Virus record (IMG/VR): IMGVR_UViG_3300010318_000046
Coordinates: 1-24,492 of that record
Length of the DNA: 24,492 bases
Strand: one strand, 5' to 3'
Origin: a virus
This document shows positions 1,842 to 21,789 of this stretch, in pieces. Made by a program: the position numbers and the translations under genes. Below the pieces are notes generated by a model. It was not told where the DNA came from. It saw nothing but the letters and a program-made list of their open reading frames with translations, and did no database searches. Numbering within the stretch: the first letter of the stretch is position 1; each line of letters starts with the position of its first letter.

Positions 1842-1849
1842 TATTTATC
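1842..1849 (-). promoter_or_regulatory. Late promoter GATAAATA for genes 25-6
   Basis: The minus strand reads TGATAAATATTGAT followed by the gp25 ATG. GATAAATA is the recurring octamer of this window and matches T4 TATAAATA in seven of eight positions. If it spans -13 to -6 as in T4, +1 falls on position 1836, the first base of the gp25 start codon. Confidence 0.7.
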
Positions 1850-3069: not shown

Positions 3070-4614
3070 CTATATTTGATCTGGGGGAATAGGTCTATAT
3101 TCCCAAGGCTCCCTTGTTGTGATATTTTGAGCAATACTTTTTATTAAATCTCTATCACCTTCTCGTAGACCTCTTGAAATCAAAGGATCAGTAGTATCAG
3201 TCACATCATCTGGGTCAGTAGGATAATCCCATGCCGGTGGAGTTATTGGTTGATCTTTAAATTCTTGTGTTTGAATTCTGTCAGCATTCATACCAACTGT
3301 TGCTTGTTCAGCGGCTCCCCCATCATTAAGATGAACTGTAGAACCTAACACATTATTTCTACCTGATGCTTGAGAATTTATTTCTCCTCCTGCTTTCATA
3401 TCAATACCAGACGCACCATACGTTTTTACTTTATTATTAGCGGCAATGTCTATGTTGTTTTTGGCAGTAACAAAAGTATTAGTGCTAGAAACTAAACTTA
3501 GTTGTCCTTCATCATCTGTCTGTAATTTAAAATCTTTTTTATTGAGCCAATTAGTCATATTGCCAACATTGATATTTAAGTCACCTTTTGGATTCCCGTC
3601 AACATCAGTGAGGCCAGAAGCAGTTTCATATTCTCCTGCATTTATAAACACAGAAGAGTTAGCCTCTAAATTTAAATTTTTATCTGACCTGATGCTAACA
3701 TTTCCTCGAGCTCTCATGTTAAAATCTCTGTCAGCATACACATTTATGTCACCGGCGTCGTTTAACTCGATCCATGCTGTACCCGATTTGTTTATAACAT
3801 AAATATCGCCTGACGTGTCGTCTAATAAAATTTGATGCCCGCCACCGGTGCGAATTCGAATGTTTTTACTTTGGCCTTCTATATCTCCGTCATCCATTAC
3901 AAAACTATGGCCTGCTTCGCGATGAGTATTATCTTTTTTGCTAGTTCTTAGGTTTGCTATTTCTGGACCAGGAGTTAAAAACCCAAATACTTGACTAGGA
4001 GATTCTCTTCTAGCAGTAGATCTACTTGCACCTCTTGTATCATCGAGAATCAGTCCTTGCCTAACAATAGCTCTTGATGCATATGGGTGTATTGGCCTTC
4101 TTCCTGAAACGCCGTGATTTATATCATCTTCGTTTCGATTTTTTTCGGCTACAGGCAAACGTTCTTCTAGACCGTATGCTGGACCTCCAGCATTACCTGG
4201 TACCATATACTGTAATTGATCGGGGAATAAACAGCCTAATACTACAGGAAATTTCTTTTTACCGTCTGCAAACGCAACCAATACAAAGTTACCGGGATCT
4301 GGTGGTACCATCCACATGCCATATGATTTTTGTGTGTCGTGAAAACCGTAAATTTGATCGCCTTCACCTATTTTACTAGATGCTGTACTACCTGCAAATG
4401 GGCTACTCCAATATGCATTATAGTAACCTGCAGGATCATCTCTGTCCTTGGACAGCATAGGTATATAAACAGTCAGTCTTCCAGAGTGTGTGTTATCTTT
4501 TGGCCTGACAATAATTTCGCCAATGTACACACCAAAATCTAAGTCGGCGTTTTCTCGTAATTTGTCAACAAAGTTTTTTTTGCTACTTTTAAATCTATCT
4601 GCTTTATATGCCAT
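3070..4614 (-). CDS. 5: gp5-like baseplate central spike, no lysozyme domain
   Basis: A 514-residue protein. Residues about 25-150 form a gp5/VgrG-type OB-fold (FGVYIGEIIVRPKDNTHSG, then RLTVYIPML and, later, FPVVLGCLF). From about residue 225 there is a long triple-stranded beta-helix region with short alternating repeats around GHSFVMDDG, NIRIRTGGGHQILLDD, GTAWIELND, DINVYAD, NVSIRSD and NLNLEA, as in gp5 and VgrG needles; a second such stretch lies near DLNINVG and NNIDIAAN. T4 gp5 has an about 165-residue lysozyme domain between OB-fold and beta-helix. Here only about 75 residues separate them, so that domain is absent. The start has AAGG nine bases upstream. It lies downstream of the hub-like gene in the same late operon, as expected for the spike that sits on the hub. 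Confidence 0.85.
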   Translation of the reverse strand: MAYKADRFKSSKKNFVDKLRENADLDFGVYIGEIIVRPKDNTHSGRLTVYIPMLSKDRDDPAGYYNAYWSSPFAGSTASSKIGEGDQIYGFHDTQKSYGMWMVPPDPGNFVLVAFADGKKKFPVVLGCLFPDQLQYMVPGNAGGPAYGLEERLPVAEKNRNEDDINHGVSGRRPIHPYASRAIVRQGLILDDTRGASRSTARRESPSQVFGFLTPGPEIANLRTSKKDNTHREAGHSFVMDDGDIEGQSKNIRIRTGGGHQILLDDTSGDIYVINKSGTAWIELNDAGDINVYADRDFNMRARGNVSIRSDKNLNLEANSSVFINAGEYETASGLTDVDGNPKGDLNINVGNMTNWLNKKDFKLQTDDEGQLSLVSSTNTFVTAKNNIDIAANNKVKTYGASGIDMKAGGEINSQASGRNNVLGSTVHLNDGGAAEQATVGMNADRIQTQEFKDQPITPPAWDYPTDPDDVTDTTDPLISRGLREGDRDLIKSIAQNITTREPWEYRPIPPDQI

Positions 4615-4628
4615 ATTGTATTACCTTG

Positions 4629-6980
4629 TTATTCTTCTTCTGCTGTCATGTCAAAGCCTGCTAAACTAAGTGCAGTTTGTTTTTTTGCCATTACGTCTAA
4701 TTCAAACATGCCGTTTGAAAAATTAGCAGTGACTCCGTATATCTGGTATACTCCACTTATAAAATATGCGGTGCCAGTTTTTGCCATATAACCAGTGTTA
4801 TCATCCTCGTCATCGATGTACGGGTCTCTAACTCTTGGTGTTTGCATTGTGAACAAAAAGTAATTATCAGTTCTATCATAAACAATGTACTGATCTGTGG
4901 AAATTTCTTCTTCGTCCTTTGCCAGCATAATTTGTTTTGGTGCTTTAGGTTCTACTTCAGGTGGTCCTAAATACCAAGGATCGCCTCTCACTTTTAAATT
5001 GAGATCAACTAAAATACTTGCATCGTTGGCATTTTGAAACATATAACCAAACAATGTTGCCTTAGATGTGCCGTCGCTAGTATTACTACTTGTAGAATAA
5101 ACACTTGCTTGATATTGAAAAGTTGGTGCAGGATCAGTTTTTAAATCTTTTGCTTGCAGTGCGGCCGCTAATGTGTTTGCTTCAAGTTGTCCAGTAAGTT
5201 CTCCTATAACTGTTTCAGAACCACCGGTTTGATCTAATAAATCTGCCGCATAGATGTATCCGCTTGGGTCTGGTTTATAGTTACCTGGAGTATTATCAAC
5301 CGGGGTCGAGGCATTTTGTCCTGCATTTGCTGTCCTATAAAATGACTCTGGTTCCTTACCATTGTTTTGTATGTAAATCAATGTTTGTGCTAATCTAGCT
5401 CTTGCTTGATCATCATTTTTAATTTGCTGTTTTTCTGCTTCAGTTAAATTTAATCCATCTAAACGTTCGTTTAAAAAAGCATCATCCTCACCTAATCGAT
5501 TTGCAAGTGCTTCTGCCTTTTCCTGTTCTGCCGCAATTTTTGCGGCTCGTTCTTCGCCGTCGAGATCGCCTTCTACTGAAGGCTTGCCTGGAGCATTTGG
5601 ACTGGTAGATGCATCTCCTAATAAGCCACCCCCAGGTGCGGCCAATAATACTTGTCCTGCTTTATATGATATATCGGCACTTAAAATTTGATCATTTAGT
5701 CCGGTATACAAATAATGGTATGCTTTCTTGATCAACATCTCTTTAACACGTTTTGTTATTTGTTCGTTTGTAAGATTAAATTCATCTGGCGTTAAAGCAT
5801 TTGCTTGATCAGCAGTGTTATAAATTATGGGTTTGTACGTGACTCTTCTTGCATAAACATTTCTCCTGCGATCGTATCCATTTTCTATGTATTCCATAGT
5901 TGCTTCTAAATTGTACCATGACGTCCAAGGTTTATCTAAATCTAGATTTTCTTTATCCATGTTTGGACTATCAAAAATCCTTTTACGGCTGATTAGATCT
6001 AAAAATGGCTCATTCATTACTAGTAGTGTTGTAAAGATTTTGTGGAAATTAGTTCCCTCTTTTACTTGAATTCTATCCCAAGAAAAAATACCTCCGCTTG
6101 CTTCTATACCACCATCTAAACTTTCTGGATTATCTTCTAACCTTTGTTCAAATTCTTTTCTCGATGTAATACCTTGTGCTTCAGCATTCATTAGCCTATT
6201 GATTTGCTCTGCATTTTTATAGTTACTGTATTTTATTTTTGTATCGGATAATCTATCTTGTAACTGACTTAAATCAAAAACTATTTCATCATGGACTAAT
6301 TCTTCTTTGAGATTTTCATCTCTGTATCGTTGTAGTGTTGTTTGTAATTGTTCTATACATTCTTCGATGGTATTACCTGTCATACTTGTATCTGCAGGTA
6401 ATGTAAAGTATTTGTCAGTCCACGACTCATCATCTCCAATGGTTACCATAACATCGTATGTGCTACCATTAGAATCAATGGATACATCTATTGTAGCAAT
6501 TTCACATTTGTAAATGAATGGTCCTGCTATCTGTGTTTCAATTTCGCCACCACCTTCTAAATTATCTAAATCTTCTATATAACCTTTAAAATCTATTCTG
6601 AGGAACAAAGGTACTGGTGCAAACATTCCTGCTTGAATACCAAGGTGAAGTTTGGCGGCTTGTATTTGGTCTAATAGATCAGCGGCTCCGGGTTGAATCA
6701 GTGTAAAGTTGGCTGATGTTGCAAACGCACCCGAGGGACCTTTTTTGACGTCTATTGACAAATTATCTATTTGTATGCCGGTAACACTTGATTGGGCAAT
6801 AACTACAGTTTCGCCTGGTTCGGCTTCCATTGCACCATTTATATATCCTCCACCGGAAGATGTTAGGTCTTTTATCATATATAACTTCATAGTGTATGAA
6901 GTGTTATTATAAGCATCAAGGATATTTCCTTGAACACTGCCTAAATATCTATCTTCTACTGGTACACTTGTTTCTGGCAT
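4629..6980 (-). CDS. Large baseplate hub-like protein (probable gp27 equivalent)
   Basis: A 783-residue protein beginning MPETSVPVEDRYLGSVQG. It lies between gp53 and the gp5-like spike, where a hub protein is expected. The N-terminal 200 residues are beta-rich (IDFKGYIEDL, GPFIYKCEIATIDVSI, YDVMVTIGDD). The middle has a charged helical, Ala/Glu-rich stretch at about 475-545. The C-terminus (TAYFISGVYQIYGVTANFSNG, then FELDVMAKKQT) looks like the tail-tube-like fold that ends hub proteins such as gp27 and gpD. T4 gp27 is 391 residues, so this would be about twice that size, with an inserted mid-region. The ATG overlaps the gp53 stop by one base (TAATG). Assignment rests on position and general architecture, so the family name is tentative. 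Confidence 0.6.
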   Translation of the reverse strand: MPETSVPVEDRYLGSVQGNILDAYNNTSYTMKLYMIKDLTSSGGGYINGAMEAEPGETVVIAQSSVTGIQIDNLSIDVKKGPSGAFATSANFTLIQPGAADLLDQIQAAKLHLGIQAGMFAPVPLFLRIDFKGYIEDLDNLEGGGEIETQIAGPFIYKCEIATIDVSIDSNGSTYDVMVTIGDDESWTDKYFTLPADTSMTGNTIEECIEQLQTTLQRYRDENLKEELVHDEIVFDLSQLQDRLSDTKIKYSNYKNAEQINRLMNAEAQGITSRKEFEQRLEDNPESLDGGIEASGGIFSWDRIQVKEGTNFHKIFTTLLVMNEPFLDLISRKRIFDSPNMDKENLDLDKPWTSWYNLEATMEYIENGYDRRRNVYARRVTYKPIIYNTADQANALTPDEFNLTNEQITKRVKEMLIKKAYHYLYTGLNDQILSADISYKAGQVLLAAPGGGLLGDASTSPNAPGKPSVEGDLDGEERAAKIAAEQEKAEALANRLGEDDAFLNERLDGLNLTEAEKQQIKNDDQARARLAQTLIYIQNNGKEPESFYRTANAGQNASTPVDNTPGNYKPDPSGYIYAADLLDQTGGSETVIGELTGQLEANTLAAALQAKDLKTDPAPTFQYQASVYSTSSNTSDGTSKATLFGYMFQNANDASILVDLNLKVRGDPWYLGPPEVEPKAPKQIMLAKDEEEISTDQYIVYDRTDNYFLFTMQTPRVRDPYIDDEDDNTGYMAKTGTAYFISGVYQIYGVTANFSNGMFELDVMAKKQTALSLAGFDMTAEEE

Positions 6981-7279
6981 TATGCTAATACTCTATCAAT
7001 AGTTTCTCTGGGTGGTATATAAATATTCTTACCTGACGTAAAATCCGTTAGCGGATCTAGTATTTGATCTGGATTACGCAGAGCAAATACCCACCATAGT
7101 TGTGTAGTACCATATAAGTCGTGTGCTAATAGGTCAGGTCTATTTTCATATTTAGATTCTATTGAATAAAGTCTGTCGCTTGTGCCCTTAGGAATTTTAG
7201 GCAATCTATTCACATCGAGAAAAAAATCCCTGATTTGTGCATTTTTCAAAAAACTGTTTTTATTATGAAAGGCTGCCAT
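6980..7279 (-). CDS. 53: Baseplate wedge protein gp53
   Basis: A 99-residue protein with the gp53 signature: an N-terminal arm, then a LysM-like segment (YENRPDLLAHDLYGTTQLWWV, followed by FALRNPDQILDPLTDF and KNIYIPP). gp53 fastens neighbouring wedges around gp25 and gp6 in the inner baseplate. It is shorter than T4 gp53 (about 196 residues), as in other marine T4-likes, and retains only the LysM-like core. The ATG shares its base at 7279 with the stop of the upstream tail-cap gene and its own stop overlaps the next start, so the operon is very tightly packed. Confidence 0.88.
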   Translation of the reverse strand: MAAFHNKNSFLKNAQIRDFFLDVNRLPKIPKGTSDRLYSIESKYENRPDLLAHDLYGTTQLWWVFALRNPDQILDPLTDFTSGKNIYIPPRETIDRVLA

Positions 7280-8010
7280 TAAATGAATCCTTGGTTATAT
7301 TGCTTACCGCTTGTAAAAGCATTAAGATCAAATCTTTTTCTTGTTTTCTTATATGTGTACTGTGGTGCTAATTCAATCATTATACTGGTTTCTGCAGGCA
7401 TGTATGTAGTAGTGCCTTTAAATTTAACAGGAACATAATCTACATCAGGTGGTAATTGGAAGTTATAGTTTCTAATAATTACTGGCACTTTATTAAATCC
7501 AAACTCTCCTAAATATTCAAATAACAATACCGGAGGAGGTGTACCATAGTATCCAGAAGTTACTGCACTGTCACCATAATATGCCTTAGTTACAGTTCTC
7601 AAAAAATGGAACAATGCTAACATGTATTGGCCTTCTTCTATTGTTTGTGCTGTGAATGTGCCTGTAATTGGCAAAGTTGGTGGCCTTGAGCTAATGTATG
7701 TATAGAAAGGATAGTTAGATCCATGTTGTTGTGCTTCGTTGTAATCTACTGACCCTTGTAAAAAGATATCAGGTGTATATGGAAACACAATTCCGCCCTT
7801 ATCTTGTAACGGTTTTAATATACTGTCTTGTACGTCGTTGCCGGCGCTGTCAACTAAACCGTATGCCCATTTTTCTCCGCCTCTTTTTGGTCGTATTCTT
7901 GCTCGCCAATCAACATCCTTGAATGTCTTTGATTCGGTGCGTTGTATCAATTGGTCGAATCGTGTATCAGGATACACGGATTCAGTTGTAAATTGAGTCT
8001 CTTCTGCCAT
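7279..8010 (-). CDS. 48: Baseplate tail-tube cap/initiator protein (gp48/gp54-like)
   Basis: A 243-residue protein, first gene of the late operon. The region from about residue 75 reads like the gp48-type cap: FPYTPDIFLQGSVDYNE, then LPITGTFTAQTIEEGQYMLALFHFLRTVTKAYYG, GTPPPVLLFEYLGEFGFNKVPVIIRNYNF and DVDYVPVKF. These proteins sit on the hub and nucleate the tail tube. The symbol 48 is my best match; gp54 is the alternative. The frame extends to 8037, but the late promoter box occupies 8028-8035, and a strong GGAG lies seven bases before the ATG at 8010, so 8010 is the start. The predicted leader is about 12 nt. Confidence 0.72.
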   Translation of the reverse strand: MAEETQFTTESVYPDTRFDQLIQRTESKTFKDVDWRARIRPKRGGEKWAYGLVDSAGNDVQDSILKPLQDKGGIVFPYTPDIFLQGSVDYNEAQQHGSNYPFYTYISSRPPTLPITGTFTAQTIEEGQYMLALFHFLRTVTKAYYGDSAVTSGYYGTPPPVLLFEYLGEFGFNKVPVIIRNYNFQLPPDVDYVPVKFKGTTTYMPAETSIMIELAPQYTYKKTRKRFDLNAFTSGKQYNQGFI

Positions 8011-8027
8011 AACTGTCTCCTGCACAA

Positions 8028-8035
8028 TATTTATC
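8028..8035 (-). promoter_or_regulatory. Late promoter GATAAATA for the tail-cap/53/hub/spike operon
   Basis: The minus strand carries GATAAATA 17 bases ahead of the ATG at 8010. With T4 geometry +1 is near 8022, giving a short leader containing GGAG. It forms one arm of a perfect inverted repeat with the plus-strand copy at 8038-8045. Confidence 0.78.
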
Positions 8036-8037
8036 AC

Positions 8038-8045
8038 GATAAATA
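8038..8045 (+). promoter_or_regulatory. Late-type promoter box GATAAATA upstream of gene 55
   Basis: A plus-strand GATAAATA separated by only two bases (AC) from the minus-strand copy. Transcription from it would start near 8051 and run through the sigma70 promoter into gene 55 (ATG 8128). This would let gp55 activate its own gene late in infection; inferred from sequence only. Confidence 0.55.
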
Positions 8046-8059
8046 AAAACGAGTTTTAA
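8046..8059. repeat. AAAACnnGTTTT element beside the divergent late promoters
   Basis: AAAACGAGTTTTAA has matching arms AAAAC and GTTTT. Its centre lies 16.5 bp from the upstream edge of the minus-strand late box at 8028-8035, the same offset as the palindrome at 1857-1874 from its late box. Confidence 0.4.
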
Positions 8060-8074
8060 TTCTTAAAATAAAAA

Positions 8075-8103
8075 TTGACTTTAACTTAAAAATGTATTAT
8101 AAT
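8075..8103 (+). promoter_or_regulatory. Sigma70-type promoter for gene 55
   Basis: TTGACT at 8075-8080 and a perfect TATAAT at 8098-8103 are separated by 17 bp. Start of transcription is expected near 8110, leaving a short leader with AAAGGAG before the ATG at 8128. This is a host-polymerase type promoter, so gp55 can be made before late transcription begins. Confidence 0.85.
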
Positions 8104-8127
8104 TGCATATCGAGTAAAGGAGACTAC

Positions 8128-8988
8128 ATGGTACAGGCTAAAAAAACAAATTATTTAAATAACAAAGATCTTTTAAAAGAAATACACAAAAGCAAAATGA
8201 CTTATTGTTATGTTCAAGATGAAAGATTTTTGAATCCAGACATTATTGTAGATAGCATCAAAAAAATAAACAAATCTGCGATAAAACAAGCACAATTAAA
8301 TCGTGTTGCAAAATTACAATCAGAGGCATATCAAACTGCTATTGCAGAAGGCAACTGGGATAAAAAACCAAAACAAAAAGATTTTGCAGTAGACCCAAAT
8401 TCCATTGCAGTCGATGATCTAGTGTTCAGAGTAATGACTTACGAGCATGTTCCAGAAGAACCCGGTAGGAAAAAGACAACAAAAACCGTTGCAGATACAA
8501 AATCAAAAGTAAACTTCCCGCCATTTAAACATTATATTTTAGACAGTAACGGCATCAATCCACGTGAAGTTGCAAGAAGCCACTGGGAAGGTAGTTTAAG
8601 TAACGGTCAATTTAATACAGAACACGGTCAAATAACCAATGAATTAGGAAGAATGTTTATGAAACTTGTTGAGCGTTATAGTCAACGAGGTAACTGGCGT
8701 GGTTACACTTATGTTGACGAAATGCGTGGTCAAGCATTAGTACAATTAGCCCAAGTTGGTTTACAATTTAATGAAGCAAAATCAGATAATCCTTTTGCTT
8801 ACTATACTGCTACAGTAAATAATAGTTTTACAAGAGTTTTAAATTTAGAAAAACGTAATCAATCAATTCGTGACGACATTCTTATTGAAAGCGGTCATTT
8901 ACCAAGTTATGGTAGACAAATACAGTATGAAAACGAAATGAGAGAATTGCGTGAAGCGGCTGAAACAGAATTAGAATCTAACGAGTAA
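8128..8988 (+). CDS. 55: Late-transcription sigma factor gp55
   Basis: A 286-residue protein (MVQAKKTNYLNNKDLL...). The C-terminal half carries the sigma-70 region 2-like core of phage late sigma factors: GRMFMKLVERYSQRGNWRGY, then YVDEMRGQALVQLAQVGLQF, followed by NPFAYYTATVNNSFTRVLNLEKRN, the helical block that binds polymerase and melts the late promoter. In T4, gp55 (185 residues) directs host RNA polymerase to TATAAATA together with gp33 and the clamp gp45. This protein has about 100 extra N-terminal residues, rich in Lys, which is common in marine T4-likes. An upstream in-frame ATG at 8092 lies inside the -10 region of the sigma70 promoter, so I use the ATG at 8128, which has AAAGGAGA just ahead. 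Followed closely by gene 47. Confidence 0.88.
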   Translation: MVQAKKTNYLNNKDLLKEIHKSKMTYCYVQDERFLNPDIIVDSIKKINKSAIKQAQLNRVAKLQSEAYQTAIAEGNWDKKPKQKDFAVDPNSIAVDDLVFRVMTYEHVPEEPGRKKTTKTVADTKSKVNFPPFKHYILDSNGINPREVARSHWEGSLSNGQFNTEHGQITNELGRMFMKLVERYSQRGNWRGYTYVDEMRGQALVQLAQVGLQFNEAKSDNPFAYYTATVNNSFTRVLNLEKRNQSIRDDILIESGHLPSYGRQIQYENEMRELREAAETELESNE

Positions 8989-8993
8989 TATAT

Positions 8994-10007
8994 ATGGCTA
9001 ACCTTTTTAAAAGGGCCGCATGTTTTACCGACATTCACTACGGCCTTAAACAAAACAGTAGGCAACATTTAAAAGATTGTCACGACTTTATAGATTGGTT
9101 CATTGCAGAATCGCATGCCAGAGGTGCAGAAACGTGTTTCTTTTTAGGTGACTGGCATCATCACAGAGCTAGTGTGAATGTTGCTACTATGAATGCTACC
9201 ATTAAAGATCTTAAAAAATTGAATGACAATTTTGAAAAGGTATATTTTATTACTGGTAATCATGATTTATACTACAGAGAAAAACGTGATTTAAACAGTG
9301 TAGAGTTTGCTAGAGATCTTGAAAATTTTGTAATGGTAGACGAATGGTTTTGTGAAGACGGCGTTGCTATTATTCCATGGTTAGTGGGCGACGAACACAA
9401 AAAGTTAAACAAACTAGATTGCAAATACATGTTTGGACATTTTGAGTTGCCCTACTTTAAAATGAATGCAATGGTAGAAATGCCAGATCACGGTGGTGTA
9501 AAAGCAAGCGATTTAACAAATCCAGAATATGTGTTTAGCGGTCATTTCCACAAACGTCAGTACAAAGGTAACATACATTATATAGGCAATGCATTCCCTC
9601 ATAACTATGCAGATGCAGGTGATAATGAACGCGGTGCAATGTTCCTTGAGTGGGGCGGTGAACCTCAGTATGTGAATTGGGAAGAATGTCCAAAATTTAT
9701 AATGACTGGACTTAAATCTTTGTTGGATAATCCAGATATCCTTGATGCAAAAACGCATGCTCGAGTTAAACTTGATATCGGTATTAGTTATGAAGAAGCA
9801 AACTTTGTTAGAGAAACGTTTGCAGAAAAATATAATGTTAGAGAAATACAACTTATTCCAGTTAAAGAGGAAGAGGAAATATACGAAGGTACTGAAATAA
9901 AGTTTGAAAGTGTAGATCAAATTGTTATACAACAGTTAGAAACAATTGAAAGTAACACCGTTGAAACGAACAAACTAATTGAAATTTATCGAGAGTTAGA
10001 AGTATAA
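8994..10007 (+). CDS. 47: Recombination endonuclease subunit gp47 (Mre11/SbcD-like)
   Basis: A 337-residue calcineurin-type metallophosphoesterase. The two-metal motifs are all visible in order: DIH at 13-15, GDWHH beginning at 52, GNHD at 88-91, GHFE with His149, and GHFHKR with His184 and His186. It partners gp46 to form the SbcCD/Mre11-Rad50-like complex that resects DNA ends for recombination-dependent replication and host DNA breakdown. The length matches the T4 protein (339). It starts five bases after the gp55 stop with only a weak ribosome site. Its stop overlaps the ATG of gene 46 by one base (TAATG), coupling synthesis of the two subunits. Confidence 0.95.
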   Translation: MANLFKRAACFTDIHYGLKQNSRQHLKDCHDFIDWFIAESHARGAETCFFLGDWHHHRASVNVATMNATIKDLKKLNDNFEKVYFITGNHDLYYREKRDLNSVEFARDLENFVMVDEWFCEDGVAIIPWLVGDEHKKLNKLDCKYMFGHFELPYFKMNAMVEMPDHGGVKASDLTNPEYVFSGHFHKRQYKGNIHYIGNAFPHNYADAGDNERGAMFLEWGGEPQYVNWEECPKFIMTGLKSLLDNPDILDAKTHARVKLDIGISYEEANFVRETFAEKYNVREIQLIPVKEEEEIYEGTEIKFESVDQIVIQQLETIESNTVETNKLIEIYRELEV

Positions 10008-11785
10008 TGCTGACTATTAAAAATGTAAGTGCAAAAAACTTTATGAGTATTGGTAATAATACTCAAGCAGTAAATTTTAACACTGAATCTTTAACATTGG
10101 TGTTGGGGCATAATTTAGATCTTGGTGGTGACGGTAGCAGAAATGGTACAGGTAAAACTACTATTATCAATGCACTCAGTTATGCACTATACGGTGATGC
10201 TTTAACAAACATTCGTAAAGATAATCTCATAAACAAAACAAACGGTAAAGGCATGATTGTTACTGTGGATTTTGAGATCAACGGAACCGAGTATCGTATT
10301 GAGCGTGGAAGACGACCAAATGTTTTGAGATTTTTTATAAACGGTGCTGAAAATGCTGATGATGAACAACAAGGCGACAGCAGAGAAACACAAAAAGAAA
10401 TAGAAAAAATAATCGGCTTCCCTCATAATATGTTCAAGCATTTAATTGCTCTTAACACATACACAGAACCGTTCCTCAGCATGAAAACAAACGATCAACG
10501 TGACATGATTGAGCAATTATTAGGTATCACTGAAATCAGTGCAAAAGCAGAAGTACTTAAAGAAAAATTAAAAGAAACCAGAGATAGTATCAAAGAAGAA
10601 GAGTTGCGTATTAGTGCTGTTAAAAACAGCAACGAAAGAGTAGGTAAAAATATTGTAGAAATTGAAAATCGTAGCAAAGTTTGGGCTAAAAACAAACATG
10701 ATAAAATTACTGAACTACAGCAAAGTTTAGATATTTTACAACAAACTGACATTGATCAAGAATTAAAAAATCACAAAATTATCACAGAAGTAAACGAAAA
10801 ATATTTAACAATAAAAGGCTTACAAAGTGAGCAAACTAATTTGCAAAGTAGTTTACTAAGAAGCGATAACAACTTAGAAACATTACAACTTAATATACAA
10901 AAAGCAGAAGAAGGTGTTTGCCCTACTTGCGAACAAAGTACTGCACACCTAGACACACACGAAGCCTACACACAGGACTTGCAAGATAAACTAAAAGTAG
11001 AAGAAGAATATAACAGTGAACTAAATAGTAAAGTAAAAACAATTCAGTCAAAGATTGATGACTTTGGTGAGTTGCCGGAAACACCAATTACTTTTTATAA
11101 CAATTTAGAAGATGCATTACAGCACAGGCATAATGTTGAAACGTTACAATCTCAAATAGAAGAAAAAACAAACGAAGTAAATCCATATATTGAACAAATT
11201 GATAGTCTAAAAAAGACTGCATTGGAAGAGATAGATTACGAACTTATAAATGATTTAACCTTTTTAAAAGAACATCAAGAATTTTTACATAAGTTGCTTA
11301 CCAGCAAAGACAGTTTTATTCGTAAAAAGATTATAGATCAGAATTTACAATATTTAAACTATAGGTTAAATCATTACTTAGACAAGTTAGGATTACCACA
11401 TGATGTTAAATTTAACAGTGACTTGTCAGTAGATATTACAGAATACGGTAGAGATTTAGATTTTGATAACTTGAGCAGAGGTGAACGTAATAGACTTATA
11501 CTCGGTATGAGTTGGGCATTCAGAGACATTTATGAAAGTTTAAATCAACCAATGAATTTGATGTGTATAGACGAACTGGTAGACAGTGGCATGGATACCA
11601 CTGGTGTTGAAAATGCATTGGCAGTTCTTAAGAAGATGGGTCGAGAGTCCAAGAAAAATGTGTTCCTTATTTCGCACAAAGAAGAGTTACAAGGTAGGGT
11701 AAACAATGTACTATATGTTGTCAAGGAGGGAGGATTTACTTCATATTCGAATGATATTGAAATCCTTGACTCGGAGAATGGATGA
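10007..11785 (+). CDS. 46: Recombination endonuclease subunit gp46 (Rad50/SbcC-like ATPase)
   Basis: A 592-residue SMC-type ATPase. The Walker A region is at about 34-52 (GHNLDLGGDGSRNGTGKTT), with a few more residues before GTGKTT than in most relatives. Two coiled-coil arms flank a zinc hook, CPTC at 305-308. The ABC signature LSRGERNRL begins near 489 and Walker B (LMCIDELVDSG) near 518. All catalytic landmarks of the Rad50/SbcC family are present, and the length is close to T4 gp46 (560). It forms the nuclease complex with gp47. Its stop overlaps the start of the following GIY-YIG gene (ATGA). Confidence 0.95.
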   Translation: MLTIKNVSAKNFMSIGNNTQAVNFNTESLTLVLGHNLDLGGDGSRNGTGKTTIINALSYALYGDALTNIRKDNLINKTNGKGMIVTVDFEINGTEYRIERGRRPNVLRFFINGAENADDEQQGDSRETQKEIEKIIGFPHNMFKHLIALNTYTEPFLSMKTNDQRDMIEQLLGITEISAKAEVLKEKLKETRDSIKEEELRISAVKNSNERVGKNIVEIENRSKVWAKNKHDKITELQQSLDILQQTDIDQELKNHKIITEVNEKYLTIKGLQSEQTNLQSSLLRSDNNLETLQLNIQKAEEGVCPTCEQSTAHLDTHEAYTQDLQDKLKVEEEYNSELNSKVKTIQSKIDDFGELPETPITFYNNLEDALQHRHNVETLQSQIEEKTNEVNPYIEQIDSLKKTALEEIDYELINDLTFLKEHQEFLHKLLTSKDSFIRKKIIDQNLQYLNYRLNHYLDKLGLPHDVKFNSDLSVDITEYGRDLDFDNLSRGERNRLILGMSWAFRDIYESLNQPMNLMCIDELVDSGMDTTGVENALAVLKKMGRESKKNVFLISHKEELQGRVNNVLYVVKEGGFTSYSNDIEILDSENG

Positions 11786-13974: not shown

Positions 13975-14272
13975 GATATTACAAGAAGTAACCGATTGGG
14001 GTGACTACTCAGTCGCCAATGGAATATATCATGTCAACAGTGCCGGACAACTTGTTCAGCACAATGACACTGTTTTTAAGAATCCAATTAAACAATTCAG
14101 CAAGGCTCGTAGGCAGTTTGTTAAAATAGGCGAACGACCAGAAGAGTTTAGCAAAGATGTTATCGTGGTTCAAGGTTCAAATGGCAACACTTACACAATC
14201 GAAGATGGTAAGTGTAGTTGCCCTGGTTTTACTTTTAGGGGAGATTGTAAGCATGTTAAAGAACATTGTTAG
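13967..14272 (+). CDS. SWIM zinc-finger protein
   Basis: A 101-residue protein with one clear motif at its C-terminus: CSCPGFTFRGDCKH, which is C-x-C-x8-C-x-H (Cys83, Cys85, Cys94, His96), the SWIM zinc-finger pattern. SWIM domains bind DNA or proteins and occur in recombination mediators and transposases. The N-terminal 70 residues are unassigned and include a basic helix (KQFSKARRQFVK). Initiation is at GTG: the one at 13967 has AGGTGG five bases upstream, while an in-frame GTG at 13958 has no such site. The gene overlaps both neighbours, so the three cassette genes are coupled. The role in infection is unknown; regulation or recombination are reasonable guesses. Confidence 0.75.
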   Translation: MIEILQEVTDWGDYSVANGIYHVNSAGQLVQHNDTVFKNPIKQFSKARRQFVKIGERPEEFSKDVIVVQGSNGNTYTIEDGKCSCPGFTFRGDCKHVKEHC

Positions 14273-16595
14273 TTTATTTTTAGTGTTGTCTGTGATTGGC
14301 TGTGCAAGTGGCGGCGGTTCAGTAGGCGTTGCAACAACCACTGTTTCACCTCCTCCCACCACAACCACTACTAATACCGACAAACGATATCAATTTGATG
14401 CGTTTTCAGACCAGTTCACAGAATCAACCAGCAAATTAGGTTATAACAAAGTTACCTATCAAGTAGGTGAGTTTAATAACACTCAGTGGGTAAATGGCAA
14501 ATACACTGTGGAAGATTTTTCATTTTTGCAGGTTGTCATAGACGGCAGTCATGGTGGTAAAGACCAAAGCGATCCAAACAGTGACGAGTACTCTGAACCG
14601 GGTAATTGGATGACCAATGCATCTGTGGTTGTAGAAAATGATGTCAATCAAGACGGTCACAGCGATTTTATAATTTACATGCAGACATTTGGTGATAGAA
14701 ATACATTACCGGGTACGCGAATGTTACAATTTGTAAATGACGGGGAAGGACATTTTAAACTAGATTGCAGTGTGTTTGAAAACAATGTGTGTCCTATTGT
14801 GTTTGGGGAAGGTTCTGTGATGAATAATCTTGGATGGTGGCACAATGAAGAAGCACCTGTACAAGAATATAACATGGGCATAGTACATCAATACGATCTA
14901 AACGGTGACGGCAACAAAGACATTTTTAATGTGAGTCAGTTGTGGCTTACTGATAACGGAAAGTTTGTTGACTCCCATACCAATCTACCTGATTTTATGT
15001 TTGAAAACTTAAATCCTGATGGTGTTGATGTAGGCATTTTTGTGCATGACCACGCAGTCGGTGATCTCAACGGAGATGGGTTTAATGATATTTTTATGCC
15101 TAATACCACACCAGTGTATTCACAAAATAATGGTTACATGTTTTTTATGCTCAACGACGGCAAAGGAAACTTTAAGAACACCAGTTTTAAAGTTGGACAT
15201 GCTGGTCATTTTGCAACATCTACCACTATTGGAGATTTTGACAATGACGGATACGGCGATATTGTTTTAGGCTGGAGTAACAATGCATACAAGAATCTAG
15301 GTGGCAATAGTGTTGGTGGGATTTACTGGGGCAACAGCAACTCTGACTACACTAAAGACTACACAGCACTTCCTGCAGGGTATTATGAACAGAATATAGC
15401 ATTTGATGTACAGGCTATGGATTTTAACAACGATGGATTGTTAGACTTGGTTTTTGCAAACACTAATGCTGATCCTTACTATCAAGGGCATGTATTACAA
15501 CTAATAGAAAATCTTGGTAACAGACAGTTTGGTCAATTTAAGTTTTTTGACGAAGGCGCAGAAACTAGTAATCTTGGAGTTGGACATATCTATATATTAG
15601 ATTTTGACCATGACGGTGACAATGATATTTTTGTAGGTCCTTACACTGATGCATATGTTTTAAAAAATAACGGTGATGGCACATTTGATAGATACAACCA
15701 ATTTGCTGTACCTGAAAATAATCCAGATATGTCGTTGCTGTTTCCAGTGGAAGTAGATGGCAAGTATGAATACGATTTTGTTGGAATGGATATTTTGTCC
15801 ATGAGTGATACACAAACTGTTACAAACTTTTTTATCAGTTTAGATCCTCCATCACAATTACAAGAAATGCACGATGAATTGTTTGACAAGTCTATAAATT
15901 ATGCTCAATCGATATTCAAAAACAAGACCATGTATCACAACATTAAAAATACATCATTGTCTGACAGTGTATTCTTTGTAAACAATTCACAAAATAACAT
16001 TGCAGGGTATTCTCATAACTTTGAAAACTTTGGTATTACTTTTGGACAGACAGATGATGGCGGCTTGTTATATTTAGACAGACAGCATGACAGATATCAT
16101 TATGGTATTGGTTATTTTAACAACAGTGTGAACTCATTGAATGTTGGTAAATGGTATGGTACCGGTACAGCAACAATTGATTTTGAGACTATAAATGCAT
16201 TTGCTGAAACATTTATACCTTTAAACGCAAATGTTTTTATAACATCGGGTGTTGCATTGTTTAACACAAAAGTAAAAGGTTTTACTGAAGAAAACAGTCG
16301 ATACAATATTTCTGTACAAAATTTTACAATGAATGATATTGAGTTGTACACTGACATTACAGGTTATAAATCTACCAAATTTGGAACCACAATGTTAAGT
16401 CTAGGACTTAGTTCATATTACAGTTTGGGCAACACTGACATTGTGTGGGATGGTGGTTTAGTTTCTAAGTTTAAGGAATCTGAGCAAGTTGCTAGAGCAA
16501 CTCTTACACATACATACAATATTTTTTATGCTAAGGCAACGTTTAGCTCGTTTGATAGTGACACGTTTGAAATAGGATTTAATTTAAGTTTTTAA
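14253..16595 (+). CDS. Outer-membrane lipoprotein with FG-GAP/VCBS repeats and barrel-like C-terminus
   Basis: A 780-residue exported protein. Residues 1-16 are a lipoprotein signal (MLKNIVSLFLVLSVIG) with Cys17 in the lipobox VIGC. Ala18 at +2 fits outer-membrane sorting. A Ser/Pro/Thr linker (about 29-42) follows. Six calcium-binding loops of the DxNxDGxxD type start at residues 130, 215, 271, 328, 390 and 450, as in FG-GAP/VCBS beta-propellers. The last about 250 residues alternate polar and hydrophobic residues, and the protein ends FEIGFNLSF, with hydrophobic residues at -1, -3, -5, -7 and -9. That is the beta-signal of outer-membrane barrels. The start at 14253 has AGGGGAGA upstream. 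The longer frame from 14157 would bury the signal peptide and is rejected. Its stop abuts the stop of the convergent gp26 extension. A role in altering the infected cell's surface is inferred. Confidence 0.8.
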   Translation: MLKNIVSLFLVLSVIGCASGGGSVGVATTTVSPPPTTTTTNTDKRYQFDAFSDQFTESTSKLGYNKVTYQVGEFNNTQWVNGKYTVEDFSFLQVVIDGSHGGKDQSDPNSDEYSEPGNWMTNASVVVENDVNQDGHSDFIIYMQTFGDRNTLPGTRMLQFVNDGEGHFKLDCSVFENNVCPIVFGEGSVMNNLGWWHNEEAPVQEYNMGIVHQYDLNGDGNKDIFNVSQLWLTDNGKFVDSHTNLPDFMFENLNPDGVDVGIFVHDHAVGDLNGDGFNDIFMPNTTPVYSQNNGYMFFMLNDGKGNFKNTSFKVGHAGHFATSTTIGDFDNDGYGDIVLGWSNNAYKNLGGNSVGGIYWGNSNSDYTKDYTALPAGYYEQNIAFDVQAMDFNNDGLLDLVFANTNADPYYQGHVLQLIENLGNRQFGQFKFFDEGAETSNLGVGHIYILDFDHDGDNDIFVGPYTDAYVLKNNGDGTFDRYNQFAVPENNPDMSLLFPVEVDGKYEYDFVGMDILSMSDTQTVTNFFISLDPPSQLQEMHDELFDKSINYAQSIFKNKTMYHNIKNTSLSDSVFFVNNSQNNIAGYSHNFENFGITFGQTDDGGLLYLDRQHDRYHYGIGYFNNSVNSLNVGKWYGTGTATIDFETINAFAETFIPLNANVFITSGVALFNTKVKGFTEENSRYNISVQNFTMNDIELYTDITGYKSTKFGTTMLSLGLSSYYSLGNTDIVWDGGLVSKFKESEQVARATLTHTYNIFYAKATFSSFDSDTFEIGFNLSF

Positions 16596-16829: not shown

Positions 16830-17683
16830 AAAAAATTTACAGGATCAAAGTTGATAGGTGCTGTAAATACTTGATCACAAGTTTCACTACTGCACTCTAT
16901 TTGCACTTCTTGTTTAACTCCTTTAGAGTTGACAGAATTTACAAAGGTCTCAATTTCTTTTCCTGTTTTGCTGTCTGTGTTTTCTAAAAATTCTCTAATA
17001 GTGGATTTGTCTTTGACGACCATTGGTTGACCGTCTTCGCCATCAAATGTTACTGATGATATACACTCAATAAGTAATTCAAAGTTCAAGTCTGCTAAAG
17101 TAACAAAACTGGTGTTGAATGCTTTAAGACGTTCCATATCATCTTTCATTTCTGAAATGCTTTGCATACTTCTTGTACTTTGAAAACTTGCTATTCCTGC
17201 TTTAATAGTATTTTGGTATGTAAAAGGTAATGCTTTTATAATAAGACCGTTAGCAAGGGTTTTTTCATATTCTTTATCTAACTCTTCCATGCTCATCAAA
17301 GATGATTCTACACTAATTACAACGTCTGTTACATTTTCGCATGCAGGACATGTTGCACTAACATCTACTTCATCACCACCACTTGCTCCTCTGATAGCAA
17401 TCAAAAGTGCATCAACGTCTGCACTGTATAATCGTTTAGGTTGCTTGATTTGTGGTACACATGATTTTATCAATGCTGACACTGCTTCGCCGTTTAATAG
17501 TGCATCAGGATTTTTTAGCAATAATTCATCCTTTGTGGTCATAGGATAAATTGCTAATTCTTCGCCTACAGCATCTTGATCCATGACATTTTCGTCGTAA
17601 AACTTGCCGCCACTTGGAATTTTTGTATAAAGTTTGGGCGATCTAAAATACGCACTTAATGGATTCTGGTTATTTTTGCTCAT
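16817..17683 (-). CDS. 26: gp26-like baseplate hub/tail assembly protein
   Basis: A 288-residue protein beginning MSKNNQNPLSAYFRSPK, followed by LYTKIPSGGKFY, the recognisable start of the T4 gp26-type baseplate family in marine T4-likes. Two cysteine pairs, Cys112/Cys115 (CPAC) and Cys264/Cys269 (CSSETC), could form a zinc ribbon. T4 gp26 (208 residues) is needed for hub assembly but is not abundant in the virion. The start has CAGGAG seven bases upstream. A late box at 17757-17764 would give a leader of about 68 nt. It is divergent from the adjacent tape-measure gene, and the slippery heptamer near its 3' end suggests a second, longer product. These features fit a tail assembly chaperone; that role is inferred. 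Confidence 0.8.
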   Translation of the reverse strand: MSKNNQNPLSAYFRSPKLYTKIPSGGKFYDENVMDQDAVGEELAIYPMTTKDELLLKNPDALLNGEAVSALIKSCVPQIKQPKRLYSADVDALLIAIRGASGGDEVDVSATCPACENVTDVVISVESSLMSMEELDKEYEKTLANGLIIKALPFTYQNTIKAGIASFQSTRSMQSISEMKDDMERLKAFNTSFVTLADLNFELLIECISSVTFDGEDGQPMVVKDKSTIREFLENTDSKTGKEIETFVNSVNSKGVKQEVQIECSSETCDQVFTAPINFDPVNFFTGS

Positions 17684-17706
17684 TAAAACTCCTGTTTATA
17701 ATTTAT

Positions 17707-17714
17707 GATAAATA
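17707..17714 (+). promoter_or_regulatory. Late promoter GATAAATA for the tape-measure gene
   Basis: Plus-strand GATAAATA with predicted +1 near 17720, about 83 nt ahead of the ATG at 17803. The leader contains a bulged AT-rich hairpin (17716-17737) followed by a T run to 17745. Confidence 0.7.
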
Positions 17715-17715
17715 T

Positions 17716-17745
17716 AACTTAACAACTCGTTAAAGTTATTTTTTT
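17716..17745 (+). other. Hairpin plus T-run at the start of the tape-measure leader
   Basis: AACTTAAC (17716-17723) pairs with GTTAAAGTT (17729-17737) with one bulged A and an AACTC loop. An A and seven T follow. The shape is that of a weak terminator or attenuator, but the stem is AT-rich and it begins at the predicted +1, so function is doubtful. Confidence 0.35.
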
Positions 17746-17756
17746 AACATGTTACT

Positions 17757-17764
17757 TATTTATC
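17757..17764 (-). promoter_or_regulatory. Late promoter GATAAATA for gene 26
   Basis: Minus-strand GATAAATA with predicted +1 near 17751. It lies downstream of the plus-strand late box at 17707, so the two divergent messages share about 32 complementary bases at their 5' ends. Confidence 0.65.
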
Positions 17765-17768
17765 TGAG

Positions 17769-17780
17769 TTAAAACTAGTT
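17769..17780. repeat. TTAAAACTAGTT element beside the gene 26 late box
   Basis: This 12-mer also occurs inside the 18-bp palindrome at 1857-1874, again just upstream of a minus-strand late box. A diverged relative lies at 8046-8059. Confidence 0.4.
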
Positions 17781-17802
17781 ATAAAGGATTTTTTGAACAC
17801 AA

Positions 17803-21781: not shown

Positions 21782-21789
21782 GATAAATA
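21782..21789 (+). promoter_or_regulatory. Late promoter GATAAATA for gene 20
   Basis: Plus-strand GATAAATA 20 bases ahead of the portal ATG at 21810. Predicted +1 is near 21795, giving a 15-nt leader with AAAGGAA. This is the clearest late promoter in the window. Confidence 0.82.

Follow-up and report, generated by a model that had tools for sequence, protein, structure and literature searches.

The intergenic stretch described here (8011-8127, 117 bases) lies within a virus record of 24,492 bases, which was analysed over its full length and is referred to as the window, and forms the divider between two operons: a leftward one that encodes baseplate proteins, and a rightward one in which gene 55 is followed by genes 47 and 46. 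The leftward operon, on the minus strand, opens with a virion structural protein (phrog_12050, 7279-8010), followed by a gp53-like baseplate wedge protein (6980-7279) and by a second virion structural protein (phrog_11190, 4629-6980); a gp5-like baseplate hub protein (phrog_13211, Phage_base_V) is encoded on the same strand at 3070-4614. The rightward operon, on the plus strand, comprises gene 55, which encodes a late sigma factor of 286 residues (8128-8988, with its ATG at 8128), as well as a gp47-like nuclease subunit (8994-10007) and a gp46-like ATPase subunit (10007-11785), both recognised by family matches. The sigma factor was identified by homology to phrog_12791 (1e-94) and phrog_234 (6.6e-26), and by a profile match to the T4 gp55 chain 7d7c_F (1.6e-6, profile positions 142-243); the same chain is the best, albeit weak, Foldseek match (E 0.064) of a structure model with a mean pLDDT of 62, whose N-terminal part gave no useful structural match. 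The protein is not of the short T4/cyanophage form; among the best 60 of 447 matching records, 57 of the 447 covering at least 80% of the protein, the closest cultured matches listed are those of jumbo phages such as Cassandra, CBB, 121Q and RaK2, with 38-48% identity over 91-94% coverage. A divergent layout with baseplate-type genes on one side is present in 9 of the 12 cultured jumbo records examined, Phosso, Atu_ph07 and SCTP-2 having it in common with the window only in part. Relatives of the window occur on contigs of up to 340 kb, and the phage is a marine relative of the jumbo phages. The sliding clamp profile PF02916 matched none of four records, and the control was likewise without a match in any genome. 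Elsewhere in the window, an ORF of 780 residues (14253-16595, plus strand) contains many DxDxDG-like repeats and a lipoprotein-like start.

Within the divider, two copies of the octamer GATAAATA stand back to back. The minus box, which reads TATTTATC as shown (8028-8035, minus strand), heads the baseplate operon, and is followed by AC (8036-8037) and by the plus box (8038-8045, plus strand), which points towards gene 55, so that two opposed -10-type elements abut. An earlier note had reported this inverted repeat with exactly these letters and positions, and its assignment of one box to the baseplate operon and of the other to gene 55 is upheld. If T4-type positions are assumed (box at -13 to -6), transcription is predicted to start at 8022 on the minus strand and at 8051 on the plus strand, as the note had proposed, with 29 bases between the two starts; the baseplate operon would then have a leader of 12 nt that contains AGGAGA and ends at the ATG at 8010. 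Downstream of the plus box lie a sigma70-type, early promoter (TTGACT-17-TATAAT, 8075-8103, plus strand) and the ribosome site of gene 55, AAAGGAGA (8116-8123, plus strand). This promoter, also recognised earlier, matches 11 of 12 consensus letters, and a TTGAC..TATAAT-like counterpart is present in 81 of 81 loci (the window and the best 80 of at least 600 matching stretches). A further feature, absent from the earlier note, is the near-perfect palindrome ATAAAAACGAGTTTTAAT (8043-8060, without strand), which can be written ATAAAAAC-GA-GTTTTAAT and matches ATTAAAACNNGTTTTAAT at 15 of 16 positions; it shares the final three bases of the plus box, occupies the minus promoter from -38 to -21, and includes the predicted plus start at 8051.

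The back-to-back pair is not a product of chance, since shuffling produced an exact pair with a gap of 0-5 bases in none of 300 dinucleotide-shuffled windows and in only one of 20,000 shuffled versions of the 117-base intergenic stretch. The possibility that the inverted repeat acts as an RNA hairpin or terminator was examined and rejected: there is no terminator-like site between the plus start and gene 55, and folding z-scores against shuffles were -0.44 for the plus and 0.62 for the minus strand.

Judging by its distribution, GATAAATA is the late box of the window's clade. In 28 non-redundant loci where 8% of bases are intergenic, 66 of its 71 copies are intergenic and 5 genic, while the other three first letters of NATAAATA account for 14 intergenic and 13 genic copies; G thus occupies -13 in 66 of the 80 intergenic NATAAATA sites. 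In the 340-kb relative, eight separate stretches (157,902 bases, 5.9% intergenic, gp55 region left out) contain 28 intergenic and 9 genic copies of GATAAATA; for 23 of the 28, a start on their own strand is no more than 120 bases away, genes in the relatives having been called by a crude ORF script. The window itself holds six copies, compared to a shuffle mean of 2.0 (sd 1.3) and with six or more in only 1 of 100 shuffles; all six are intergenic, given a gp25 start at 1836. GATAAATA boxes also precede genes in Pseudomonas phage Cassandra (99,801 bases). By every sequence test run, both boxes at 8028-8045 qualify as late boxes.

Comparison with T4, S-PM2, Syn9, RB49 and CBB was based on the accessible portions of the corresponding publications (PMC5259590, PMC2988020, PMC1524935, PMC2984593, PMC2988021, PMC6024815), which give the late promoter box as TATAAATA for the T4 type, NATAAATA for S-PM2 and ATAAATA for CBB. 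As described there for T4, S-PM2 and CBB, the clade of the window employs a single 8-base box approximately one helix turn before the start, located by structural genes, in a genome that encodes gp55. Unlike the T4 type, for whose late promoters the same portions report no conserved upstream element, this clade displays a G at -13 and, in a subset of promoters, an upstream palindrome.

Other late boxes of the window present features of their own. The ATG of gp25 (start 1836) comes exactly 5 bases after its late box (1842-1849, minus strand), which predicts a leaderless transcript; the 5-base gap is kept in 40 of 41 distinct gp25-like contexts selected by a regular-expression filter, and is found in 6 of the 19 boxes of the 340-kb relative that have an ORF of at least 60 residues from the first ATG. 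Another late box (21782-21789, plus strand) lies 20 bases before a gp20-like portal gene, with no palindrome seen before it. The late boxes of a pair at 17682-17785 point towards each other (17707, plus; 17757, minus), each with a palindrome behind it, and their predicted transcripts would overlap by approximately 32 bases at the 5' ends; Cassandra (L095) also has a facing pair, 8158 (plus) and 8178 (minus), adjoining the baseplate hub gene.

Conservation was followed in a first set of loci, consisting of the window and the best 80 of at least 600 matching stretches, and in another set, the best 80 of at least 599; in one set of relatives the match often begins inside the gp55 gene, which makes upstream distances rough. 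Within the first set, 'near' denotes the window, L001-L044 and L047 (46 loci), and 'far' denotes L045, L046 and L048-L080 (35 loci). Of the 81 loci, 80 have the minus box TATTTATC; only L072, whose sequence breaks off 86 bases upstream, does not show it, and two of its close relatives, L263 and L265, carry the box. As NATAAATA (TATTTATN as shown between the two operons), it is also found in 11 of 12 cultured jumbo phages. By this distribution, the minus box is an old, orthodox late promoter of the baseplate operon. Gene 55 also has a conserved leader roughly 50 bases before the ATG (for example in L009 and L048), which reads AATATAAACGAACGATAGTTTTGAGGAG in the near set and AATATAAATGAACGATAATTTTGAGGAG in many loci of the far set; the change from AAAC/GTTT to AAAT/ATTT looks as if the segments were paired, and two examples folded without a consistent hairpin. 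The window is without this conserved leader.

The earlier note had made conservation of the plus box a test of its proposal, and this expectation holds in part: the box, as NATAAATA, is kept in 45 of 46 near relatives of the first set, but is absent at that place from all 35 far relatives (one of them cut off 86 bases upstream) and from all 12 cultured jumbo relatives. As a candidate promoter of the sigma factor's own class before its gene, the plus box is, on this evidence, lineage-bound. Among the 46 near loci the plus box occurs as GATAAATA (32), AATAAATA (11), TATAAATA (2) and AATAAATT (1), its first base being G in 32, A in 12 and T in 2, and the gap between the boxes is sometimes 1 base instead of 2 (L011, L030). 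In 17 near representatives, the core ATAAATA is invariant in 16, while none of 41 fourfold sites of gp55 is invariant and median pairwise identity at these sites is 49%. Retention of the core while fourfold sites are saturated indicates that selection maintains the plus box in the near clade. The spacer of the gp25 late promoter varies at the equivalent place in the 15 of the 17 near genomes that show this promoter, and the plus core is thus not a by-product of minus-promoter structure. Since the first G of the plus box drifts, the same alignments indicate that perfect dyad symmetry is not the conserved property, and the perfection of the repeat, remarked on in the earlier note, is incidental.

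Beyond the near clade, late-type sequences precede gp55 in other arrangements. In 34 of the 35 far loci TAAATA precedes the TTGAC of the early promoter by no more than 7 bases, and 2 of 35 gp55 fourfold sites are invariant in the far set; other early-type promoters of the same loci carry TAAATA in the 15 bases before the -35 box in 3 of 66 cases. L244, L247 and L248 have a plus-strand GATAAATA beyond a palindrome-like stretch before gp55; in L232 the two boxes stand back to back, the minus one being degenerate. Among the 87 representatives placed on a tree of gp55, 51 have no plus late box, 16 have the back-to-back arrangement, 14 have the box before the -35 box and 6 have another plus box; the near clade is a starred group, in which 15 of 16 rows carry the pair and the remaining row differs from it by one base in the plus box. 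To account for the plus late box on this tree, at least 4 changes are needed, whether gains or losses. The stretches scanned before T4 gene 55 and before gp55 of cyanophage ACG-2014b contain no NATAAATA. The exact pair is found in 95 IMG/VR stretches, 46 of which adjoin a gp55 gene; beyond these 46, L173 and L193 carry it on cut loci with the same upstream sequence. Back-to-back GATAAATA pairs with both gene starts within 25 bases, like that of the window, also occur at L125, L131, L170, L199 and L203, where, unlike in the window, gp55 is not adjacent. A recurrent back-to-back late pair of other phages (L125, L131, L163, L199, L203) lies between the gene of a small virion structural protein (phrog_11854 in L199) and that of an unnamed protein of approximately 140-160 residues. 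Back-to-back late pairs are therefore an already known kind, and what is new is the placement of the late sigma gene and a structural operon on one proposed bidirectional late promoter with an upstream element.

We infer that 8028-8060 is probably such a bidirectional late promoter, read by polymerase carrying gp55, which would provide late positive feedback on gp55 together with polymerase competition. Leftward, it would act as an orthodox late promoter, composed of box and upstream palindrome, for the baseplate operon; rightward, the second late box, two bases off, would add late transcription of genes 55, 47 and 46 to that from the early sigma70-type promoter. As the promoter types suggest, host sigma70 would direct early transcription and yield the first gp55; polymerase bound by gp55 would then recognise both boxes, as their motif predicts, and rightward use would produce more gp55. 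The earlier note's proposal of an early start followed by late feedback at gene 55 is plausible. With starts predicted 29 bases apart, binding in one direction should exclude binding in the other, and the two operons would compete late in infection; this mutual exclusion, also put forward earlier, follows from geometry only. In E. coli, exclusion of this type counts only where one direction is highly active, as may be the case late in infection. Recurrence of a plus late box before gp55 in other layouts and other lineages speaks for late transcription of gp55. Counting against it, the G at -13 that is nearly fixed elsewhere drifts in the plus box, which also lacks an upstream palindrome, although 28 of 28 late-type boxes elsewhere in the 340-kb relative lack one at that place as well. 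Its absence from the cultured relatives and from 51 of 87 representatives, the use of early and middle promoters by T4 gene 55, the lack of NATAAATA in the stretches scanned before gp55 of T4 and of ACG-2014b, and the restriction of competition to strongly activated promoters in E. coli likewise weigh against this reading.

The two promoters are unequal in this respect, the minus one having the extra palindrome and the plus one not. In the gp55 neighbourhood, ATTAAAACNNGTTTTAAT typically lies about 6-7 bases before the late box, and for the 83 of 84 sites that were scored, a palindrome score of at least 12/16 was obtained at 28 of 28 gp55-minus boxes, 31 of 36 other intergenic boxes and 7 of 8 sites called genic, at 1 of 11 gp55-plus boxes (that one in the far clade), and in 2.4% of shuffled upstreams. 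When six contigs were searched for the palindrome alone, 37 sites were found versus 9 for a control pattern; GATAAATA lies 4-10 bases away from 14 of the 16 sites fetched, and from all 11 of those with at most one mismatch, while an over-strict pattern (full palindrome, gap and box) gave one match each in 3 of 5 records. In the eight stretches of the 340-kb contig outside the gp55 region, none of the 28 intergenic GATAAATA boxes has the palindrome at that place, which rules it out as part of every late promoter of the clade; by these counts it is an element of a late-promoter subset. In the window, this subset comprises the promoters before gp25 and before the neighbour of gp55, as well as the facing pair 17707/17757. 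By eye and unscored, no such palindrome was seen before the GATAAATA boxes of Cassandra (99,801 bases).

These data offer some support to a different reading, possible yet clearly less probable than a bidirectional promoter, in which true control lies with the palindrome at 8043-8060: a phage protein, bound there as a dimer, would aid the minus promoter, cover the plus start and thereby set direction. The high scores before gp55-minus and other intergenic boxes, as opposed to shuffled upstreams, and the proximity of nearly all fetched palindromes to GATAAATA are in its favour, and a protein bound there could presumably not easily leave the plus start free. The reader protein is, however, only hypothetical, and binding by a host protein or another role would also be compatible with the site; the boxes without palindrome in other parts of the 340-kb relative imply that it is not needed for late transcription generally, and 2 of the 6 window sites scoring at least 13 lie away from late boxes. 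The more specific version, in which the putative dimer reads ATTAAAACNNGTTTTAAT upstream of a subset of gp55-dependent promoters (baseplate, tail) and turns self-amplification of gp55 off as the baseplate operon is turned on, is a slightly longer shot again. A palindrome over the plus start lends more concrete form to the idea, advanced in the earlier note, that the site is a candidate switch.

It is rather unlikely that the plus box is a decoy, which would bind gp55-polymerase without productive transcription, and in so doing moderate the baseplate promoter or hold polymerase in place. Such a role would suit a box whose -13 base is variable and which has no palindrome of its own, the existing one sitting on its start, and would leave the minus box as the only orthodox promoter; but in other lineages of gp55 the layouts with a plus late box would involve no overlap with a minus box, as expected if late gp55 transcripts, and not interference, were what is needed. 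Improbable too is the suggestion that a repressor or activator binds the dyad as a dimer, which would make it an operator with only a secondary likeness to late boxes. The perfect 8-base arms seen in the window and their location between two operons would be expected of an operator, whereas each arm is a late box found singly upstream of many genes, far relatives keep the minus arm without the plus arm, and drift in the first base of one arm, with a gap of 1 or 2 bases, means that dyad symmetry is not kept. Finally, it is scarcely credible that the plus box arose by chance from the AT-richness of the DNA: the box alone arises in 343 of 20,000 shuffles of the intergenic stretch, but comparison of its core with fourfold sites, together with clade-wide retention, refutes this explanation for the near clade, unless the alignment misleads.

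A bidirectional late promoter that feeds back on gp55 has parallels in known systems. In the accessible text of the publications cited above, T4 gene 55 is assigned early and middle promoters, and gp55 of CBB, a phage in which gp33 and gp45 are not recognisable, is preceded by a promoter of a second, non-late class; the intergenic stretch before CBB gp55 contains no plus late box. According to the same partial sources, RB49, S-PM2 and Syn9 have genes in which early and late promoters replace middle ones, and the window likewise has one gene with both a predicted early and a predicted late promoter; here, unlike in those phages, it is the late sigma factor itself that the gene encodes, and a divergent late promoter is joined to its late box. 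A published precedent for feedback on a late sigma gene concerns phage 7-11, for whose late sigma gene 47 the available part of the report proposes early promoters first and then feedback via a late promoter (PMC8948821). There too a late sigma gene would be served first by early promoters and then by its own late promoter, but sigma factor and motif are unrelated to those of the window, the promoter was mapped there and is predicted here, and, as far as that part describes it, the 7-11 late promoter is apparently not divergent, unlike the window pair. In E. coli, Warman and colleagues describe, in the portion accessible, bidirectional promoters with symmetric -10 elements, two starts and exclusive polymerase binding, those tested competing only when strongly activated (PMC12825309); their starts are commonly 18, 10 or 23 bp apart and share a -10 element, whereas the window has two separate boxes and a predicted distance of 29. 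Within the open-licence library searched, no paper was found on a late promoter of gene 55 itself.

If the bidirectional promoter functions as proposed, some phages with gp55 of the jumbo type would place their late sigma factor under its own control, in more than one layout, and such self-control would constitute a compact timer for the change from early to late transcription. In phages without a recognisable gp33 and gp45, as reported for CBB, the palindrome associated with a subset of late promoters provides a concrete candidate site at which a late activator might act; should the directional reading of this element be true, it would represent a second tier of late control in marine phages related to jumbo phages.
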